Shown here in pieces: positions 1,405-44,241 of a DNA stretch of 48,515 nt. The stretch is from a virus. Position numbers and translations under genes: made by a program. The stretch spans positions 1-48,515 of IMG/VR virus record IMGVR_UViG_3300031718_000016; one strand, given 5' to 3'. The stretch's first letter is position 1; the number at the start of each line of letters is the position of its first letter. Below the pieces are notes generated by a model. The model was given only the letters and a program-made list of their open reading frames with translations, was not told where the DNA came from and did not search any database.

Positions 1405-1581
1405 TTGAAGCCTAGAGATCGCGGTTGCTTGTGCAAGCGCCGCTTCGACACCCAAGCTGAGTGCGAGGCGGCGATAGCACAAAATAAGGCAGTGGTTCCC
1501 CTCCGCGCCTGTAAGTGTGTGTATGGCAACCACTGGCATATGACTAAGGCACCACTAAAGTTAAAACGCTATGCTTCCTAG
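1405..1581 (+). CDS. Small Cys-rich zinc-type protein (TTG start)
   Basis: A 58-residue frame that fills the gap between the ssDNA-binding gene (stop one base before this start) and the polymerase, whose ATG lies inside its last codons. It begins at TTG and carries CLCKRRF near the start, a basic helix, then RACKCVYGNHWHMT. The second half matches the 'y.C..Cg.wHlT' pattern of small phage zinc-knuckle proteins, with the second cysteine pair changed to C-x-C. Tight coupling on both sides and the motif argue that it is real. No function is known. Confidence 0.6.
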   Translation: MKPRDRGCLCKRRFDTQAECEAAIAQNKAVVPLRACKCVYGNHWHMTKAPLKLKRYAS

Positions 1582-4057
1582 TTGCCCAATCCCCGGTGCG
1601 CGTGGCCTCTGCAACGTCGAAGGCACTAGCGTTAACGGCGTGCTCATATTGGGCGAAGCAATGGGAGAAGCTGAGTTGGCCGATAGGTGCCTCCCATTTA
1701 GACCCTACGCTCCCGCCGGCTCAGTTCTAGAGAGGGCGATTAGAAAGCTGGGCCTCTATCGGGAGGCATTTCTACTCTACAACGCCATCCCAACCCATCC
1801 CCCTGGCAATAACCTCGCTGGACCATGGCTAAGCGAGGCAATGGCGTGGGGCCGGTGGCACCTAGAACAAGTTGTTCGTAAGTATCAACCTAAGGTGATT
1901 CTAGCTTTGGGCAATGTAGCCTTCCAAGTCGCCTCAGGGCTGGCTGGTGAGGGCTACAACATCGGCTTGGTCGAGGGTTATACCTTCCCTGCGCGGGATT
2001 TATCCGCAATGGTTGTTCCCTCGTTCCATCCCTCTTTCCTGCGTCGAGGGGCGATGAGCCACTTTGGATGCCTTCTGAGGGACATTGGGCTTGCAGTGGA
2101 AGCGGCCAAGGGAAGCTGCGAGCCTACCATAGCGCCACCCGATCCACCACTCTACCAATCCCATCCAACTTGGCTGGATGCTGAGAACTTTCTAGCCAAC
2201 GCTGAGCGTAATCCCAACTTACCCATCGCCTATGACATCGAAACGCCCTACTCCAAGAAAGCTACAGAAGAAGAAGCCGAGGAAGAAACAGAAAGCGCCA
2301 TCCTCTCCATCCAATTTAGCCTCGCCCCTGGGAGCGGCATATTCTTCCCCTGGCGAGAGCCATTCATTGAAGTTGCGAAACGCCTACTTGCTCTGGGAAA
2401 CCCTAAGCTAGGCTGGAACACATGGAGGTTCGATGACCCCCGACTACGCGCAAACGGTGTTGACATCAATGGAACTAACCATGATCTTATGTGGGCTTGG
2501 CATCATCTACAACCTGACCTTCCTAGAGGACTACAATTCGCCGCTAAGTTCCTGGGTTGGCGCTATCCGTGGAAACATCTGGCTTCTGCTCGCCCTGAGT
2601 TTTATGGCATTACGGACGTTGATTGCCTACAAACCATAGTTGGACCGCTCTTTAAGGCGCTAAAAGATACTGGCGTATGGAGTGGCTACCAACGCCACAT
2701 CATCCAGCTTGAGCCTATCTTGGCTAAGATGAGCGCTCGCGGTATGCCGGTGGAGGCCAAGCGCTATGAGGAAGTTAGCTTCAACCTATCTTGTCGCGTG
2801 GATGGCGGGAATGAGGAGTTACAAGAGTTAATTCCCATTGAGTGTAAAACAATTAAGACTTACAAGAAAAAGCCGCCGAAGGTTATGCCTTGGAAAGTGA
2901 GCACTAAGTCACTTACTAAGTACGCTGAATTTAGGGGCCACGATTTACCACTCGACTTTACGACGAAGAAAATAACCTTTGATCAGATGCACCTAAAGAG
3001 GCTCTATGACAAGACGAAAGACCCTTTGTACAAGGCAATTCTAGATTACAAAGACGCTGCAACGATTCTCTCGAATCATATCGTTAACTGGAAACCTAGA
3101 AGTGACGGACGGGTGCATTCGACTTTCTATTACGATCCAGCAACAGGCCAGCTTAGTTCCCGTAGACCTAACATTCAAAATGCCCCGAAGTACAAAGAGG
3201 GCCAGGGCGACCTATTTCGATCCATTGTGCAAGCTGAAGAAGGGAGAACTTTAATTGAGTTCGACTACAAAAGTTTCCACGCACTCACGCTCGGCTTCGA
3301 GGCTAAAGATAACGATTACATGCGACTTGCCAAGCTCGACATCCACAGCTACGTTACAGCGCATCTCCTCCGCTTGCCGGGGCGCGAGAGATTACTTGCA
3401 ATGGTTGATGACGAGCTTTCCGAAAGACTATCACGCATTAAACGTGAAAATAAAGCCGTTCGAGACGTTAAAGCGAAAAGGGCAATCCTAGGCTATGGCT
3501 ATGGCCTTGGTTATCGCAAGCTATATGACATGAATCGAGAGAGCTTCGATAGTCAGAAAGAAGCGAAAGACCTCCTAGCGCTGCTTGATTCCCTGTTTCC
3601 CAGGGCGAAGAAATGGAGGGAGAATGTCAGAGTCCGCGCTCACGAACAAGGATACCTGCTTTCGCGTCACGGTTATATACGTAGGTTCTATGAAGTCCTC
3701 CGATGGTCGCCATCGGGGCTTAGGCCGGGTGGAGAGCAGGCAGAAGCTGCCATCGCGTTCCTTCCGGCAAATGATGCTTTCGGACGCATTAAGGAGGCCC
3801 TTCTGGAGCTGGATAGTGTATCTGGATTGCTTGAGCGGTTCGGATTTATTAACACAGTTCACGACTCGCTCCTCTTTGAGTGCCCCGATGCGTTGGTGGA
3901 GGAGTGCGTTGCGTCGGTACTCCCGGTTATGGAAGCGCCTTCGGAAGTGTTGGTTGATCCTGTCATCGCCCCAGAAGGATTGAAGTGTGAAGTGGGTGTA
4001 AGCATGGGCAAAAGCTGGGACAAAATGGAGGAGTGGCGTGCAGCAACTTTTGTGTAA
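1571..4057 (+). CDS. UDG-like domain fused to family A DNA polymerase
   Basis: An 828-residue fusion. Residues 1-180 look like a family 4/5 uracil-DNA glycosylase: G28-E-A-M-G-E, a PF-x-P-x-x-AGS-x-L segment, LALGNVA, and the H153-P-S-F-L-R motif. Residues 215-370 are a 3'-5' exonuclease (D222-I-E224; NTWRFDDPRL; YGITDVD). The rest is Pol I: motif A D565 in EFDYKS, motif B R631...K636 with Y644, motif C H764-D765-S. All catalytic acids are present, so it should be the replicative polymerase with proofreading. The position equivalent to E. coli F762 appears to be L640. The cysteines expected in the second half of the family 4 Fe-S ligand set are replaced (THPPGN where CRPPGN is usual). The start overlaps the preceding gene by 11 bases and has no clear ribosome site, suggesting coupled translation. 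Confidence 0.9.
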   Translation: MLPSCPIPGARGLCNVEGTSVNGVLILGEAMGEAELADRCLPFRPYAPAGSVLERAIRKLGLYREAFLLYNAIPTHPPGNNLAGPWLSEAMAWGRWHLEQVVRKYQPKVILALGNVAFQVASGLAGEGYNIGLVEGYTFPARDLSAMVVPSFHPSFLRRGAMSHFGCLLRDIGLAVEAAKGSCEPTIAPPDPPLYQSHPTWLDAENFLANAERNPNLPIAYDIETPYSKKATEEEAEEETESAILSIQFSLAPGSGIFFPWREPFIEVAKRLLALGNPKLGWNTWRFDDPRLRANGVDINGTNHDLMWAWHHLQPDLPRGLQFAAKFLGWRYPWKHLASARPEFYGITDVDCLQTIVGPLFKALKDTGVWSGYQRHIIQLEPILAKMSARGMPVEAKRYEEVSFNLSCRVDGGNEELQELIPIECKTIKTYKKKPPKVMPWKVSTKSLTKYAEFRGHDLPLDFTTKKITFDQMHLKRLYDKTKDPLYKAILDYKDAATILSNHIVNWKPRSDGRVHSTFYYDPATGQLSSRRPNIQNAPKYKEGQGDLFRSIVQAEEGRTLIEFDYKSFHALTLGFEAKDNDYMRLAKLDIHSYVTAHLLRLPGRERLLAMVDDELSERLSRIKRENKAVRDVKAKRAILGYGYGLGYRKLYDMNRESFDSQKEAKDLLALLDSLFPRAKKWRENVRVRAHEQGYLLSRHGYIRRFYEVLRWSPSGLRPGGEQAEAAIAFLPANDAFGRIKEALLELDSVSGLLERFGFINTVHDSLLFECPDALVEECVASVLPVMEAPSEVLVDPVIAPEGLKCEVGVSMGKSWDKMEEWRAATFV

Positions 4058-4388: not shown

Positions 4389-5245
4389 TGTATACTCAAG
4401 CGTTGGTTCCAACCACCAGTGAATATCTGACTAGGTTGTATAAAGACGCTCCTGCTGACGTTATCAAATGGGAGGGGTCCATGCGTTACGGGGATGAGTG
4501 TAAGTATGTCACCGCCCACTTTGACCCTAAGGTTTATAATAACAACATTGAGATTTTAGCCCTCACTGATGTTCAGTACGGGCATCTCTCTTGTAATGTC
4601 CCACGCTTCATTGAGTTTAGAGATTGGGTGCTCTCAGCCCCGAATCGCTTCGTCTTTCTCTTGGGAGACTTGGTGGATGCGGCCACTAGTATCAGCATAG
4701 CTAGTCCTTATGAGAATACTGAGGAACCAATGGGGCAGGTGTTTCGTTTCATTGAGCTGATGATCCCCATGCGCCATCGCATCTTAGGCTACGTTGGGGG
4801 CAATCATGAACGCCGATCAGTTAAAACTTTTGGCGACTTGGGACATCTAATAGCTACGTTTCTAAAAGTTCCCTACAGCTCAGGCAAGCAGTTCGTTGAC
4901 ATCCACTATGGTGAACATAAGCCATTCAAAAATTCTCTGTGGCATGGGGGAACTGGCTCACGTACTAAGGGCGCTAAGGCTCAGATGTTGCATCGCTTCA
5001 TGTCGCAGGGAGAGGCGCAGTGCTATTGGGTGGGGCACCTGCATGATGTAGTAGTGCTCTATGACTGGCGCGAGCGTAGGAGAGAGGGAAGGATTCATTT
5101 GGAAAAATTCGCTGGTGTGATGTCCTCTAGCTTCCTTGAGCACTACGGCACCTACGCCGAAGTTAGTGGGATGGCCCCCAGCGACACGATGATGGGCCGA
5201 GTAATTTTAGAGAAAGATGGAAAGTGGGAGCTAACGTTAAGATGA
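4388..5245 (+). CDS. Calcineurin-like metallophosphoesterase
   Basis: A 285-residue protein with the metallophosphoesterase signature in order: LTDVQYG (first metal site, D-x-Q in place of D-x-H), LLGDLVDA (GDxxD), GGNHERR (GNHE), WHGG and VGHLHD. Members are di-metal phosphodiesterases or nucleases; phage versions next to polymerases are often compared with SbcD/Mre11-type DNA exonucleases, but there is no SbcC partner here. The start shares its A with the previous stop and follows AGGAGA. The enzyme class is clear; the substrate is not. Confidence 0.85.
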   Translation: MYTQALVPTTSEYLTRLYKDAPADVIKWEGSMRYGDECKYVTAHFDPKVYNNNIEILALTDVQYGHLSCNVPRFIEFRDWVLSAPNRFVFLLGDLVDAATSISIASPYENTEEPMGQVFRFIELMIPMRHRILGYVGGNHERRSVKTFGDLGHLIATFLKVPYSSGKQFVDIHYGEHKPFKNSLWHGGTGSRTKGAKAQMLHRFMSQGEAQCYWVGHLHDVVVLYDWRERRREGRIHLEKFAGVMSSSFLEHYGTYAEVSGMAPSDTMMGRVILEKDGKWELTLR

Positions 5246-5529
5246 TCGAAGCTAAATATTCTGTTGAAGAAGTAGGCAGCATTTGTGATGAATTTTTGGC
5301 CCTCGTCAAAGAGAGTGTTGACGCCAAGGCTAGAGAGAAAAACTACACTCAAACAGACGCCGATGGGAAGAATCAACTCATCGAAGTTGGCACGCTCTTG
5401 TCATTCGAGCCCCAGCATGGCATTGGGGAGATCGTCTACAAATGCGCCGAGTATTTGAAGAATCCCCGCGAAGTTTTACTCATCAAAATAGCAGGCTGGG
5501 CCTATATATTGTGGAGGCGAGGCCGGTAG
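5242..5529 (+). CDS. Hypothetical protein, 95 residues
   Basis: The start chosen is the ATG at 5242, which overlaps the phosphoesterase stop as ATGA; an upstream GTG in frame is less likely. The protein is helical, acidic at the N-terminus, and ends in a hydrophobic segment (LLIKIAGWAYILW) followed by RRGR, which may attach to the membrane. Its stop codon TAG lies inside a copy of the CCGGTAGCTTT junction motif. No family is recognised. Confidence 0.6.
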   Translation: MIEAKYSVEEVGSICDEFLALVKESVDAKAREKNYTQTDADGKNQLIEVGTLLSFEPQHGIGEIVYKCAEYLKNPREVLLIKIAGWAYILWRRGR

Positions 5530-5535
5530 CTTTAT
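5523..5535 (+). promoter_or_regulatory. Junction motif copy (plus strand)
   Basis: CCGGTAGCTTTAT just before the gene at 5542; its TAG is the stop of the preceding gene. Confidence 0.5.
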
Positions 5536-5541
5536 AACGAG

Positions 5542-5868
5542 ATGGACAAGGGAATGCCAGCTAAAACATCAAATCCCAGCACTGACTTCAACCCGCTGTC
5601 AACTGGGTGGGTAATGGTTGTGTGTTCCCTTCTCCTATTTGTTCTCTCCACCAGCGCCCAAACTACCGAGCAATACGCCGTGATGGTGTGGGACAATACT
5701 CAGCCTGAAGTTTGCCCCCTCACGGTTGAGGTCGGCCCCAAGACGCGCTTAGAGGTTCCCCTCGATGAGAATGGCGTGCCTGACAAGAGCCGCGCTACTA
5801 TCTATGGCGAGATCGCTCACTACAAATCAGACTGTGCTAGGATTGAGCTGAGGAGACGGTCGAAGTGA
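5542..5868 (+). CDS. Exported or membrane-anchored small protein
   Basis: 108 residues. A polar lead of about 20 residues is followed by a hydrophobic segment (VMVVCSLLLFVLS) and S-A-Q-T, which reads as a signal peptide cleaved after AQ or as a type II anchor. The remaining ~70 residues contain two cysteines that could form a disulfide outside the cytoplasm. A second start at 5554, after AAGGGA, would give a more ordinary signal peptide. It lies directly behind a junction motif. The role is unknown; as an exported phage protein away from the virion block it could act on the host envelope. Confidence 0.6.
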   Translation: MDKGMPAKTSNPSTDFNPLSTGWVMVVCSLLLFVLSTSAQTTEQYAVMVWDNTQPEVCPLTVEVGPKTRLEVPLDENGVPDKSRATIYGEIAHYKSDCARIELRRRSK

Positions 5869-35876: not shown

Positions 35877-35889
35877 AGAAAGCTACCGG
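35877..35889 (-). promoter_or_regulatory. Junction motif copy
   Basis: CCGGTAGCTTTCT; its TAG ends the sigma-like gene; followed by CTAGGAG of the gene 35394-35861. Confidence 0.6.
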
Positions 35890-36458
35890 GAAGTGATCGA
35901 ACGCCTCATCTTCGTCATGGCGGATTCGAGCAGAATTTCAACCTTGGAGCGGGGCATATCCAGCTCCCGCGCTACTTGTTGAGGCGTGCGTGAGGGACCA
36001 CCATCGAAGCCATGAAGGAGGCTAACAACCATCCACTCCCGAGGCTCCAGCAGCTCCTTCGCTCTAGTTGATAGCTCAGTAGCCGCCATCCTATCCGGCA
36101 AACCATCTGCCCCACACTCAGGCTGGGGCGTGTCATCATGCTGGGGGAAGGCAGTGATCGCCGGCCCCTTGCTTAGGCCACTCAATCCCTCGGCTTTAAT
36201 GCGCCTTACTTCTTTTACCATTGTGTTCTGAATCACGCTGATTGTGTAGTTGTTGAGATTTTGCCCACCGGAGCGCTTTAGGACTGTGCGCCACCGAATA
36301 GTTCCTATCTTGGCGTGGGCGGCGGCTACTAAGTCCTCCCTATCCTCGGTGGAGAGATGATAGCGAACGCCCATTTTGTAGGAGATTCCGTCAATTAGGC
36401 CACGAAATTGATTGAGCAACTGGAGGGCTATGTCGGAGTTACGGACGGGGTAGGACAC
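35883..36458 (-). CDS. Sigma-70-like phage transcription factor
   Basis: 191 residues. Residues 35-80 (EDREDLVAAAHAKIGTIRW, then YTISVIQNTMVKEVRRIKAE) resemble sigma region 2. Residues 130-185 (AKELLEPREWMVVSLLHGFD, then TPQQVARELDMPRSKVEILL and MTKMRRSI) look like a region 4 helix-turn-helix. It may direct host RNA polymerase to phage late promoters; the CCGRTARCTTTCT motif before many virion genes is a candidate target, and this gene ends inside one copy. It could also be a DNA-binding adaptor without sigma activity. The fold call is moderately secure. Confidence 0.65.
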   Translation of the reverse strand: MSYPVRNSDIALQLLNQFRGLIDGISYKMGVRYHLSTEDREDLVAAAHAKIGTIRWRTVLKRSGGQNLNNYTISVIQNTMVKEVRRIKAEGLSGLSKGPAITAFPQHDDTPQPECGADGLPDRMAATELSTRAKELLEPREWMVVSLLHGFDGGPSRTPQQVARELDMPRSKVEILLESAMTKMRRSITSR

Positions 36459-38355: not shown

Positions 38356-38668
38356 CCCCTCGATTGTAAAGACCTTAAAAAATTCTCGGAGCCAACACCG
38401 GCCCGTTTCGAGCATGGCGGGGCCGGGGTATCCCCCCCCCCTAGCTACGCCTACTGTAGCTACAGCGCTTGTATTGCATAACCTAACCCGCACACACTCA
38501 CGCTAACTCTAACGCTCACTAAGCGATGCATTGGTGCGAGGGACTAGCGTGGGCCGACTCAAGCTAGTGGGCTAGGTTGGAGCTAGGTTAACTATGGTTA
38601 ACTCGGTGGGATTCACACTAGCGGGGGGTTAATAAATGTACGTACAATCTTGTCATTACAAATAAGTA

Positions 38669-38690
38669 AGGCCACGCCGAAGCATGGCCT
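38669..38690 (-). terminator. UUCG-loop intrinsic terminator
   Basis: Minus strand AGGCCATGC, TTCG, GCGTGGCCT, then TTACTTATT. A nine-pair stem closed by a stable UUCG tetraloop and a weak U-run, 64 bases after the end of the AAA+/VWA block. Confidence 0.8.
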
Positions 38691-38753
38691 CTAGTCTTGC
38701 TATCTATTCACACTAGCCTAACGATCTTCGCCGATACGTTGTCACTTGCCTAG

Positions 38754-38963
38754 TCATCTGCCCTCCGCATCTGCCAAGCCAAGCCTCACAGCATACCTAT
38801 CGCTTGGCCCTAGCTCCCTATAAGTCTGCCCTAGTTGCTCCAACATTTCCTTTGCCCACTCGCGTGCATCGCCCTTATTCTCTTTGCGCCATGCCTCATA
38901 CGTTTGTAGGGGTTGATTCGATGCCGCATTACCCTTAGAGCGGGTTGCCTTAGCGTTAGTCAT
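38754..38963 (-). CDS. Small charged protein with palindromic insertion
   Basis: 69 residues from the ATG at 38963, after GGGGAGG. The first part includes a copy of the dispersed palindrome (38926-38948, read as TRSKGNAA); the rest is a charged helical protein (YEAWRKENKGDAREWAKEML, LGPSDRYAVRLGLADAEG). Last gene before the terminator. Function unknown. Confidence 0.55.
   Translation of the reverse strand: MTNAKATRSKGNAASNQPLQTYEAWRKENKGDAREWAKEMLEQLGQTYRELGPSDRYAVRLGLADAEGR
38926..38948 (-). repeat. Dispersed palindromic element, copy 8
   Basis: Minus strand AACCCGCTCTAAGGGTAATG in gene 38754-38963, encoding TRSKGNAA. Confidence 0.75.
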
Positions 38964-39114
38964 GCGACCTCCCCAAGTCGAGGTATATTGCTTCAAGCAT
39001 GAAGATGGCTGCCCAAGCCGCATGGTAATAGTTGTGGGTTGATTCAAACTTGAATCCTTCATAACAAAAGAACCCAAGCACTATCAGTTGTGCTAGTGCA
39101 TTGATTAGTCTCAT
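38956..39114 (-). CDS. Small two-span membrane protein
   Basis: 52 residues from the ATG at 39114 with AAAGGAC upstream. Two hydrophobic segments (LAQLIVLGFFCYEG; HAAWAAIFMLEAIYL). Overlaps both neighbours by a few bases. It travels with the AAA+/VWA genes, so it might anchor that system to the membrane, which is speculation. Confidence 0.5.
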   Translation of the reverse strand: MRLINALAQLIVLGFFCYEGFKFESTHNYYHAAWAAIFMLEAIYLDLGRSHD

Positions 39115-39332
39115 TGAATTGTCCTTTCGGGATGGTGACACTCACAAGCGCACCTTGAGGCAAGGCACCTAGCGTGCTTTCCCTCAGCGCATAGCTTACG
39201 AATGTCCATTGGATAGTTATTACCTATGCCGTTAGTTTGTAGAGTGTGCTTAGTGAGCGGGGAGTTAGCGTCATGGCCACGCATCGGCCCATGGCGAGCA
39301 TAGCGTAATAGCCTAGCTAAGCCTCGGATCAT
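39111..39332 (-). CDS. Small Cys/His-rich zinc protein
   Basis: 73 residues, ATG overlapping the VWA stop as ATGA. The C-terminus, CAEGKHARCLASRCACECHH, is a dense metal site of a kind seen in short phage proteins ('C..GkH..C....C.C.CH'). The N-terminal part is basic. Part of the AAA+/VWA operon. Confidence 0.55.
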   Translation of the reverse strand: MIRGLARLLRYARHGPMRGHDANSPLTKHTLQTNGIGNNYPMDIRKLCAEGKHARCLASRCACECHHPERTIQ

Positions 39333-40714
39333 CCTGCTATCCCCCTTCCCATTTTCGCTAACACTGCATTCATCTCTTTGAAGCTAGTGATTTGCGTTAG
39401 CTTCTTACGCCCTAGCGCTGTGGCGAGTAGTTGCTTGGCCGCACGCATAGACACTTCAGGCCCTGTAAACTCGCCATCGGTTAGGAAATAGCGCGGTTGG
39501 GGCATCGCTAAGAGCCATTGCAGCGCTTGAAAATCGACTACGTTGCCATGGCCCCACCGATTGAAACCCTCCGCATCTTTACGCTTGATGCTATCCAAAT
39601 CATTCGCCCTCTTGCCCTTATGAGCGAAAATCCAAAGATTCCCCGGCCCACCGCCATCATTCACCGCATTGTAGAAAGCAATCGTTGCAGCGGGAGCCAT
39701 CACTAGCATCTTGATTAGCACATCGGGCGTTATGTTCATACTCCCTGAGGCATCAATCAAGATCGTGCCACCATTGCGCCTGATAGTTTTGAGGAATAGC
39801 CTAGGCGGGCAAGGGCCTATCACTGTAGCTAGTTTCTTAGCATGAATCTTGCATCCCGCGATTACATGCTTTTGATCTTCGCCAAAGAATGTTGGAATCA
39901 TTGCATTAGCGAACATCTGATGTATGTACATCTTGGGCATCGGCGCTTTGCGTATCTCATTGGCCATGCCCTTGCCAAGCATATCCGCTGCGTCGCTCGT
40001 TATCTTCCCATCCAGCTTAGCAAAGCTAACATCGGCAAACTCGCCTTTTTCTTCGCCCTCATCTGCTAGGACAAGCATGGGGAAGGATTGAGACAATGCC
40101 CCAGAGTCGCTAAAGTAGGGCTTCAACGTAGCCTTAGCCTCAGCCATCTTGTTAGCTCTGATTTGCTCTAGCGCAAGGGCCATCTTGTCAAAGTAATCAG
40201 GCGCTACCCTCTCGCACAGAGGCTTAACCCTCATCGCATGGGGGTTATCATCTTGTGACGTGAGAATAGCGCTCGACCGTAAAGCAACTAGCGCGGCTAC
40301 ATCTTTGCTTGGATGGGCCGTCTTAGCTGTGATTCCATGCAAGTCTTTCAACGCTGTGAATAGCTCATCCCTTCTCACTTGGCCACTTGTCTGAGCTAAG
40401 TTAAGGTGCAATCTGGCATCTTCCAGCGCTTGCTCAAGGATGGTATAGCCCTTTTTACTCTTGATGCGCTCTTTAGATGGCTTGGCAGAGTAGATGCCAT
40501 GCAGCGCTTCGTGCAATCGAATGGTGCGAGCATAGGCGTTATTGCCAGTAGGCAGCATAGCCTCTGCTTTGATTAAATCAGTCGCGCCACCCGCTCCACT
40601 TGCGGCTAGTTCCTTCGTTAACGGTTTAGCGCTAAATTTACTCGCCTTAATTCTCGCTGGAAATATCGCGCAAGGGTCAAAACTTGGGTCAGAATGGGAT
40701 GTCTGTTGGCTCAA
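39329..40714 (-). CDS. CobT/CoxE-like VWA-domain protein
   Basis: 461 residues. The C-terminal ~150 residues hold a von Willebrand A domain with an intact metal-ion site, D321-A-S-G-S, and a later LTDGEFTG strand. The N-terminal region has RLHEALHGIYS and LEQALEDARLHLNL, matching the 'HE..H..y(t)...lEDaR' pattern of CobT-like phage VWA proteins. VWA partners of MoxR/CobS AAA+ ATPases (CobT, NorD, CbbO, ViaA) help remodel metal-dependent targets. The matching ATPase is the second gene upstream. The phage target is unknown. Confidence 0.8.
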   Translation of the reverse strand: MSQQTSHSDPSFDPCAIFPARIKASKFSAKPLTKELAASGAGGATDLIKAEAMLPTGNNAYARTIRLHEALHGIYSAKPSKERIKSKKGYTILEQALEDARLHLNLAQTSGQVRRDELFTALKDLHGITAKTAHPSKDVAALVALRSSAILTSQDDNPHAMRVKPLCERVAPDYFDKMALALEQIRANKMAEAKATLKPYFSDSGALSQSFPMLVLADEGEEKGEFADVSFAKLDGKITSDAADMLGKGMANEIRKAPMPKMYIHQMFANAMIPTFFGEDQKHVIAGCKIHAKKLATVIGPCPPRLFLKTIRRNGGTILIDASGSMNITPDVLIKMLVMAPAATIAFYNAVNDGGGPGNLWIFAHKGKRANDLDSIKRKDAEGFNRWGHGNVVDFQALQWLLAMPQPRYFLTDGEFTGPEVSMRAAKQLLATALGRKKLTQITSFKEMNAVLAKMGRGIAG

Positions 40715-40908
40715 TTGATTCCTCCGATTTCACTTTTCACTACTTTGTAGTTGGCTGTATCGTCTTTCCAGCGTCCAAGGTGGTCAGGGCAAGATTCAAA
40801 TTGTGTCCCTAACAAGCTAGGGCTAATAGGGTTAAGTCTCTCGAAAATAACTCCACTTCCCTTTGGCCTAGTAGTTCCATGGTGGTCAGTGTGAGGGCAG
40901 CCCGACAT
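40711..40908 (-). CDS. Small Cys/His protein between ATPase and VWA genes
   Basis: 65 residues starting 8 bases after the ATPase gene and overlapping the VWA start as ATGA. MSGCPHTDHHGTTRPKGSG, later ESCPDHLGRW: two C-P-x-H type pairs that could bind one metal. Its place between the two partners suggests a dedicated accessory or substrate protein; no family is recognised. Confidence 0.55.
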   Translation of the reverse strand: MSGCPHTDHHGTTRPKGSGVIFERLNPISPSLLGTQFESCPDHLGRWKDDTANYKVVKSEIGGIN

Positions 40909-40915
40909 TTTAGGG

Positions 40916-41956
40916 TCAAAGCTTGCCCGTAGTGCGACTAGCAGTAGTCAACACTCCGAGCATTTCCTTTCCTGCTGACCCAAACGCCAACAATGCCGCA
41001 TTCGTCTCGCCTACCATTGGCTTCAACTTGGCAAATGCACGCATACGCCTCAAGGTTGGCTTCCCGCTCCATTGCCAAGGGGAAACATTCAATCCTTTGA
41101 AGTGATTGCTAACCGCATCCTTCATTGATTGATTCTCGAAAGATGTGATGGCATCAGGATGAGGCGTTATCGCTGGCATGATTGCTTCGAATCGGTCCAA
41201 CACTGCCTCAGGCAAGGCTGTGACGTTGCTATTCGTGGTAGCAATCACGCCAAACCCTTCTTTCGCGTAAACGATCTCCCCGGTGGGCAAAGTGGCATGG
41301 GGGGAATCATCAAGCCATCCATACAAACCCGAACTGATTTCAGTAGGGTGATGGTCGATTTCATCAATGACAATGCGCTTGCCCTCTCTCATCGCCCTAA
41401 CAATAGGCCCATCGCACCATACTGTCTCGCCCTCGATGAGTTGATACATGCCAATGGCATCTTCTACTCCCATTCCCTCAGTCATAGTCATGCGGTATTC
41501 AGTGCCAGTGAGCAACAAGGATGTCTTGCTCTTTCCAGTGCCCGGAGGGCCTATCAGCATGACCCTCATCAATTGTTTGTCTGAATTGTTGCAGATGGCC
41601 TGTAGAAGATCAAACCACAGGGCATTGTCTTTCAGTTTGGGTGTTTTGGGAGAGGCTACTAGTGCGGTTGATTCACCTACTAGTGCGGTTGATTCACTCG
41701 CCTTAGCCTCATCAACCTTAGCTACCAGAGTTCCCCCCAGTTTGGCTGTGGCGGAATCAATCAAAGCCTGCAATTCCGCTATTTTCGCATCAAGATCAGG
41801 CGATGTAGCAGTAGGCTCTGGCTTAGCTTCGGGATTCTCACAGTCGGCATGGTAGGCCGCACCTTTTTCTCGCCGACTCCAAGTGATAAATTGTCCTACT
41901 TCGATTGGCTTACCGCAAGTTTTGCAAGTGCCTTTGTAGCGTGCTGGAAATGCCAT
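40916..41956 (-). CDS. MoxR/CobS-like AAA+ ATPase with N-terminal zinc ribbon
   Basis: 346 residues from the ATG at 41956, after GGAGG. C11-K-T-C14 ... H36-x2-C39 is a PARP-like or treble-clef zinc site. Residues 50-105 are a flexible linker holding a duplicated ESTALV (a perfect 21-base tandem repeat at 41656-41697). The AAA+ core has Walker A at 136-143 (GPPGTGKS), Walker B IVIDEIDH, sensor 1 ATTNSN and an arginine-finger segment LPEAVLDRFE. These are features of MoxR/CbbQ/CobS ATPases. Together with the VWA gene it forms a phage chaperone-like pair. The ribosome site lies in the loop of a small hairpin (41962-41980). Confidence 0.85.
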   Translation of the reverse strand: MAFPARYKGTCKTCGKPIEVGQFITWSRREKGAAYHADCENPEAKPEPTATSPDLDAKIAELQALIDSATAKLGGTLVAKVDEAKASESTALVGESTALVASPKTPKLKDNALWFDLLQAICNNSDKQLMRVMLIGPPGTGKSKTSLLLTGTEYRMTMTEGMGVEDAIGMYQLIEGETVWCDGPIVRAMREGKRIVIDEIDHHPTEISSGLYGWLDDSPHATLPTGEIVYAKEGFGVIATTNSNVTALPEAVLDRFEAIMPAITPHPDAITSFENQSMKDAVSNHFKGLNVSPWQWSGKPTLRRMRAFAKLKPMVGETNAALLAFGSAGKEMLGVLTTASRTTGKL

Positions 41957-43234: not shown

Positions 43235-44181
43235 GCATTAGCCACATCAACAATCGCGCCACTCAACTTCGCCATCGCATCGTCCATGGCCCCATCCCGC
43301 GCCTTCACGTAATGGGTCATCGTCACATCCAAGTGTTAGTGACGCATTATGCGCTGAATGACCTTCGGCGCGACACCCAGCTCCCCTAGGTTAGTCGCCA
43401 ACCCCCGCCTAAACGAGTGCCACCCCCTCCACTCCAACCCTGTGCCTTTCAATAATCGGCGCATAGCAACGTGCGTGTGGGCGAGGTCGGGCAGCACTGG
43501 GATGGTCGTAGCTCTAGCTTTGTAATCATCCAGTATCACTTTGAGACTGGGTATAACGGGCACATAATCCTTGCTAGCCACACTCTTGGGCTCAGTCTTG
43601 ATCCCGCGCCACACATTGCGATTGATGTGGAGGTCCTTGCCATCGTAATCGCTCCACTCCAACCCCTGCAACTCCGCTCGCCTCAAGCCAGCGTAGCCAG
43701 CGATAGCCACAGCCACCTTCCAGCCGCCATCCAACACCATCAACAGGCGCTTGATCTCATCCAACGAGTAGGCATAGGTCTTAGCGGGTGGCCTACCCTT
43801 TGGAATCTTGCACTCCCTCACTGGATTGCTTTCCCTCACTCCCGCCAAGACGGCATACCTAAACACCCCGCTCAAGAACGCCTTAATGTGAGTGTGTGTG
43901 CTTTTAGCTAATTCCCGCTTCGCCGCTATAGCATTAAGCAATAGCTGAACGTCCATTGTTCGGTAATCGCGTACCCTCAACTGAGCCTCGGCTAAGCCTT
44001 TTATCTTGGCGTGCCACAGACTGACATAGCCCCTGTGAGTCGATGGCCTCAGCTCTTTGGCGTAGGGTAGATAGCGAAACTCGATGAACTCATCTAGCTT
44101 GATCGCTGGAGCCGTTGAGCTATTCACCCTCCGCATGAAATACCAGCCGCCACTCTTGAACACTAGATTTCCTTTTTGCAT
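43231..44181 (-). pseudogene. int: Tyrosine integrase interrupted by TAA before the catalytic Tyr
   Basis: Starts at the ATG at 44181 after GAGGAGG. Residues 1-110 are the arm/core-binding parts. The catalytic domain follows with R167/R168 (GLRRAEL), a candidate Lys at 204, and H255-S-F-R258. The frame reaches QRIMRH281 and meets TAA (43336-43338). Reading on in the same frame gives HLDVTMTHY291VKARDGAMDDAM and ends at TGA (43231), so the expected tyrosine nucleophile lies nine codons past the stop. Either the gene is a recent nonsense mutant, the stop is read through, or there is a sequence error. The uninterrupted product would have 316 residues. Confidence 0.85.
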
Positions 44182-44241
44182 TGTTTCCTCCTCCATCCCA
44201 TTTGATTCAGCGTTAGAAAAACCGACGCACAATGTTTCATA

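Follow-up and report, generated by a model that had tools for sequence, protein, structure and literature searches.

The window analysed here is the whole of a 48,515-base virus contig (IMG/VR record IMGVR_UViG_3300031718_000016). A run of consecutive minus-strand open reading frames (ORFs), from 41956 down to 38754, encodes a MoxR-type ATPase, a partner protein with a von Willebrand factor A (VWA) domain, and four small ORFs lying between and beyond the two (Table 1). Besides its metal-ion-dependent adhesion site (MIDAS), the VWA protein carries a putative metallopeptidase motif, HEALH followed by E98. This motif was overlooked in a first-pass annotation of the same DNA and, as judged from the sequence, is the most informative part of the locus.

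Table 1. Coordinates of the ATPase/VWA locus in the window.
Feature	Position	Strand	Remarks
AAA_5/MoxR-type (CobS-like) ATPase, 346 aa, ATG at 41956	40916..41956	-	Pfam AAA_5 E 2.9e-18
Cys/His ORF, 65 aa, between ATPase and VWA, coding uncertain	40711..40908	-	No codon-usage support
Zincin-motif + VWA protein (CobT-like partner), 461 aa, TTG start, GGAGG upstream	39329..40714	-	
HEALH, H68-E69-A-L-H72 (codons 68-72), predicted zinc ligands and catalytic Glu	40499..40513	-	
E98 of LEDAR, predicted third zinc ligand	40421..40423	-	Invariant in seven-sequence alignment; matching place in 12 IMG/VR partners
MIDAS DxSxS, D321/S323/S325	39740..39754	-	
73-aa ORF (possibly only last 32 aa), CxxGxHxxCx4CxCxCH	39111..39332	-	Absent from L015; no codon-usage support
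Predicted membrane peptide, 52 aa, neighbour only	38956..39114	-	Hydrophobic segments; no L015 homologue; no codon-usage support
Charged peptide, 69 aa, neighbour only	38754..38963	-	Codon usage supports coding; no L015 homologue
Intrinsic terminator hairpin, operon end	38668..38691	-	10-pair stem, T-rich tail

The VWA protein was aligned with six MoxR partners from phages and plasmids, and the invariant residues included H68, E69, H72, E98, R101, D321, S323, S325 and D413. The HExxH, third-ligand Glu and MIDAS residues were also invariant across 12 IMG/VR partners, and HExxH...E was likewise conserved in some 35 VWA partners encoded by phages and mobile elements. To set these against chance, 221 unrelated phage ORFs, each 300 aa or longer, were scanned; one had HExxH within its first 200 residues and none had the extended pattern HExxH...E[DES]xR.

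No Pfam match was found for the window VWA protein. Its only PHROGs match was phrog_33218 (expectation value, E, 1.6e-7), and tblastn against phages returned nothing credible, even at E 10. Single-protein scans of viral sequences with the window VWA protein, ATPase and terminase detected no relatives, genome-contig scans with alignments of the VWA protein and the ATPase found none, and a nucleotide search of the operon region against phages gave no match. The sole close relative found was a 58 kb record, IMGVR_UViG_3300034819_000005 (L015), with 33% identity in the VWA protein (residues 6-458, E 3e-57) and 48% in the ATPase. Gene order in L015 is as in the window (ATPase, small Cys/His ORF, VWA). 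Its VWA protein retains HEALH and the ED.R element, and downstream of the VWA gene lies a ParB-like gene, recognised by reading the sequence. Compared by BLAST at E 0.01, the two phages had in common the pair, a uracil-DNA-glycosylase/polymerase region and one short tail-fibre-like stretch only. An intact metal site had been claimed for the VWA domain, and this is largely correct: DxSxS and D413 are intact, but where most relatives have Thr at the third MIDAS position, the residue is apparently Asn in a 'GxGN' context both in the window protein (Asn391) and in L015.

When a profile of 35 family members was aligned with the window and L015 proteins using hhalign, the HExxH region (E 9e-4) and the MIDAS region (E 3e-3) each gave a match, and the two matches were collinear. 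These matches are individually weak, yet they agree with the motif, its order and the partner gene. By sequence comparison the window protein is a compact and strongly diverged member that groups with L015 only, far from the other family members. It was among the shortest examples encountered in the analysis, and this makes it convenient to express and test.

The ATPase matched phrog_16448 (E 1.3e-26) and phrog_249 (E 3e-19), and its nearest solved structures were midasin (E 9e-24) and NorQ (E 4e-12). Walker A (GPPGTGKS), Walker B (DEID), N242, R255 and R303 are present, and the columns G136, G139, G141, K142, E199, N242 and R303 were invariant in its alignment. The N-terminus holds a CxxC...HxxC motif and matches phrog_1581 (E 5e-9). 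This motif, predicted to bind zinc, corresponds to the added N-terminal zinc site of the first-pass annotation. The L015 ATPase (4606-5688) has its own, different Cys/His-rich N-terminus, not clearly homologous to the zinc-like region of the window ATPase.

Shine-Dalgarno-like sequences were found upstream of the ATPase, VWA, membrane and charged ORFs. The terminator region (38655-38715) had a minimum free energy of -20.2 kcal/mol (z -2.8), and a promoter search of the operon region gave nothing above shuffle background. Codon usage supported coding of the ATPase, the VWA protein and the 69-aa charged ORF; per-codon scores of the 65-aa, 73-aa and membrane ORFs (0.015, -0.044 and 0.004) were no better than those of other frames. 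Of the six-gene operon and strong terminator described earlier, the ORF run and the hairpin stand; three of the small ORFs lack codon-usage support.

The small ORFs were then compared with L015. Its Cys/His ORF occupies the same place as the 65-aa ORF and has a similar C...CxxH pattern, at a similarity that was not significant (94 of 1000 shuffles as high). Homology of the 65-aa ORF to the Cys/His N-terminus of the L015 ATPase was also considered and set aside as not significant (154/1000 shuffles). The 73-aa peptide was rejected as a dedicated partner: its motif is common in viruses (at least 120 stretches), and a MoxR or zincin-VWA gene lay nearby in 0 of 80 sampled loci. Across loci L067-L146 the motif appears as a widespread unnamed Cys/His element, in ORFs of 27 to 374 aa that are often small. 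The 73-aa ORF is probably a co-transcribed neighbour outside the system. A self-contained six-gene unit had been suggested, to be checked by a gene-neighbourhood survey. L015 lacks the 73-aa, membrane and charged peptides and has its ParB-like gene there instead; this and the 0/80 count do not support a unit of that size. The core of the system is two genes, the ATPase and the VWA protein, possibly three.

A scan of viral records with an ATPase pattern gave 35 loci, and a second scan one more. Of the IMG/VR MoxR loci, 30 had enough room for a neighbour, and at 28 of these an adjacent gene carried HExxH, MIDAS and the Glu of the third ligand. The remaining two loci lie on contigs closely related to each other, and near-duplicates may occur among the 28. 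In annotated phages with the pair, the neighbours were mostly replication, recombination or nucleotide genes. On plasmids, HExxH-VWA genes accompany DUF3150 and several adjoin bet/exo, conjugative IncC elements included; 840 of the 861 records holding the IncC-type stretch were predicted to be conjugative. At plasmid loci L057, L058, L059, L007, L008 and L012, DUF3150 is accompanied by an HExxH-VWA gene, a MoxR ATPase or both, and several of these loci adjoin the recombination genes bet/exo. A search of the available literature found no paper on DUF3150. In an Azospirillum plasmid relative (L059, 3953-6097), HEAGGH, one residue longer, replaces HExxH.

Structure was modelled with AlphaFold for a family member, L016, from 12 sequences, at a predicted local distance difference test (pLDDT) score of 67. 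The N-terminus of this model comprises a helix, three strands, a helix (57-73) with HExxH and a helix (91-109) with the Glu, an order of elements that is zincin-like and consistent with, but not proof of, a zincin. Its fold matches were VWA domains, for example the MIDAS domain of MDN1 and NorD-VWA (with NorQ), and its viral matches included a cyanophage 'peptidase' and proteins of a Gordonia phage, a halovirus and Thermus phage P74-26.

The published readings of this widespread viral pair conflict, one as CobT, a cobaltochelatase helper, and the other as a metallopeptidase-vWA virion chaperone. Virion assembly was proposed as the role of a MoxR/vWA pair of group 2.2 jumbo phages whose vWA protein has an N-terminal metallopeptidase (PMC7824862); on this reading the pair would remodel and clip phage structural proteins. 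An analogy with p618/p892 of Acidianus two-tailed virus (ATV) can be drawn, ATV ORF892 was a weak viral fold match to the L016 family model (E 6.8e-4), and the window operon lies on the strand of the structural genes, a few small ORFs away from them. Virion assembly is nevertheless disfavoured by the related HExxH-VWA genes beside bet/exo on conjugative plasmids and by the near absence of structural proteins common to the window and L015 phages, and we regard it as unlikely.

The same kind of pair was elsewhere taken to be viral CobST, with hijack of host CobN proposed, and a cyanophage protein of this type was said to be CobT "mistakenly annotated as a peptidase" (PMC8651126). The two genes would then be auxiliary metabolic genes whose products join host CobN and raise cobalamin production. 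The phrog_249 match of the ATPase carries the label 'porphyrin biosynthesis', and one plasmid relative matched Pfam CobT (E 1.6e-9) and the TIGRFAM CobT model. The best plasmid relative, however, fell below the NCBIfam CobT equivalog cut-off (34 vs 759 bits), and the window VWA protein matched neither CobT model (PF06213/TIGR01651), nor did a six-frame search with PF06213 find a match. CobN (PF02514) was absent from all 16 viral records tested (the window, L015 and 14 further records with the pair), in agreement with the earlier remark that no chelatase is encoded with the pair; a host CobN is possible. HExxH was missing in two chromosomal Burkholderiaceae CobT-like proteins, a small control of just two sequences of which one was checked as related to solved CobT, whereas HExxH...E is invariant in the phage family, which would be unexpected for a chelatase-only role. 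Cobaltochelatase assistance is accordingly judged improbable, well short of an even chance.

A further possibility is that the pair acts as a metal-insertion or remodelling chaperone for a host enzyme, in the manner of NorQD or RavA-ViaA, with an HExxH domain that binds zinc without cutting. NorQ is among the closest solved ATPases, NorD-VWA is among the best fold matches, and NorQD is reported to remodel its target for metal insertion, the VWA finger entering the ATPase pore and ATP use twisting the linker (PMC13036017). No metalloenzyme target was identified in the flanks read, however, and the catalytic Glu of HExxH is invariant. A chaperone role of this kind is considered unlikely.

The reading we favour, at a probability of roughly 0.5, is that the pair works as an ATP-driven machine for remodelling that includes a zincin-type domain, is probably proteolytic and has a target outside the virion. 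The invariance of HExxH...E and MIDAS across diverged phages, together with the plasmid relatives, favours a metal-site-dependent role that is untied to virions. In this scheme the ATPase would form a ring and bind the VWA domain as NorQ binds NorD, as homology and the NorQD work (PMC13036017) suggest. A protein target may be recognised by the metal site of the VWA domain, by the Cys/His parts or by both; in a NorQD-type pair the MIDAS site was needed for function and dispensable for ATPase binding (PMC9976466). An ATP-driven twist of the adaptor linker could then remodel the target and present it to the zinc domain for cleavage or metal handling. Given where related modules are located, a protein of DNA metabolism or of the host would be a likelier target than one of the virion.

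Several observations weigh against this favoured reading. The similarity of the window VWA protein to the family profile is weak (best E 9e-4, probability 22%), and a model of the window protein built from a two-sequence alignment reached a pLDDT of only 33 and was discarded. No zincin structure was among the top 50 fold matches of the L016 model, in which VWA domains dominate. The IncC plasmid stretch examined has an HExxH-VWA gene and no adjacent MoxR gene. The HExxH site might serve a structural or metal-handling purpose instead of a proteolytic one, and the CobT matches of one plasmid relative in Pfam and TIGRFAM leave a chelatase-type ancestry possible.

More tentatively, and with greater doubt than hope, the locus may represent a minimal ATP-driven metalloprotease of mobile elements, composed of a MoxR ring, a zincin-VWA protein and Cys/His substrate adaptors, directed at a host or DNA-metabolism protein and not at virions or corrins, and common to phages, archaeal viruses and conjugative plasmids. 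If true, it would add to Clp, Lon and FtsH a further AAA+ protease architecture, hidden by the labels CobST and virion chaperone. The HExxH...E motif in the VWA partner makes the dispute over what such pairs do in phages and plasmids testable.

Other genes of the record were noted in passing. The region 1571-4057 encodes a protein predicted to join a uracil-DNA-glycosylase-superfamily domain (Pfam E 7.5e-15) at its N-terminus to a family A DNA polymerase (E 5.5e-23), and a 464-aa protein of the L015 phage matches residues 17-449 of it. A 191-aa protein (35883-36458) matched sigma-70 region 4 (E 3.2e-6) and is a possible phage sigma-like factor. A tyrosine integrase is encoded at 43336-44232 (phrog_1, E 2e-42), and the virus is therefore probably temperate.

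The locus was compared with the known systems that it resembles. It had been put forward as a candidate for an undescribed phage system; the ATPase/VWA pair is already in the literature (PMC7824862, PMC8651126), and was noted in haloviruses as well (PMC7911831). As in the group 2.2 jumbo phages (PMC7824862), the window ATPase adjoins a VWA protein with an N-terminal metallopeptidase motif. Unlike theirs, the window record is non-jumbo at 48.5 kb, the VWA protein has 461 aa against about 600-870, the ATPase gene comes first and has an N-terminal Cys/His motif, and a small Cys/His ORF lies between the genes. With the viral CobS/CobT cluster (cyanophage phrog_249/phrog_459 'peptidase', haloviruses) the window shares the adjacent ATPase and VWA genes and the HExxH and MIDAS motifs of the partner, but its VWA protein matches neither phrog_459 nor the CobT or VWA models of Pfam. 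The plasmid MoxR/DUF3150/VWA module (IncC-like and others) likewise contains a VWA protein of the HExxH type, which several examples combine with a MoxR ATPase. That module carries DUF3150 between or beside the pair, whereas the window neighbours have no DUF3150 Pfam match and only the 65-aa ORF lies between the pair.

Bacterial vWA-MoxR ternary conflict systems (PMC7159879) raise the further idea of an anti-phage defence or superinfection-exclusion module. Such systems have a third component (VMAP, iSTAND or FtsH) and a variable effector domain, neither of which was seen here: the VWA domain of the window protein lies at the C-terminus and bears no additional effector domain, and the neighbouring ORFs are short and without family matches. 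PADLOC gave no meaningful match (best IetA, E 0.008 over 19 residues), and a defence role is considered very improbable. ATV p618/p892 is also a viral MoxR/VWA pair, and p892 a weak fold match to the family; it differs in being reported without a peptidase domain (PMC7824862) and in its role in extracellular tail growth. NorQ/NorD, RavA/ViaA and CbbQ/CbbO work in a comparable way, with an ATPase ring and a VWA adaptor, but the literature examined describes no HExxH zincin domain in any of them, and their targets are known host enzymes. Set beside these systems, the locus belongs to a known type whose function is disputed, and within that type it is a compact and strongly diverged variant.

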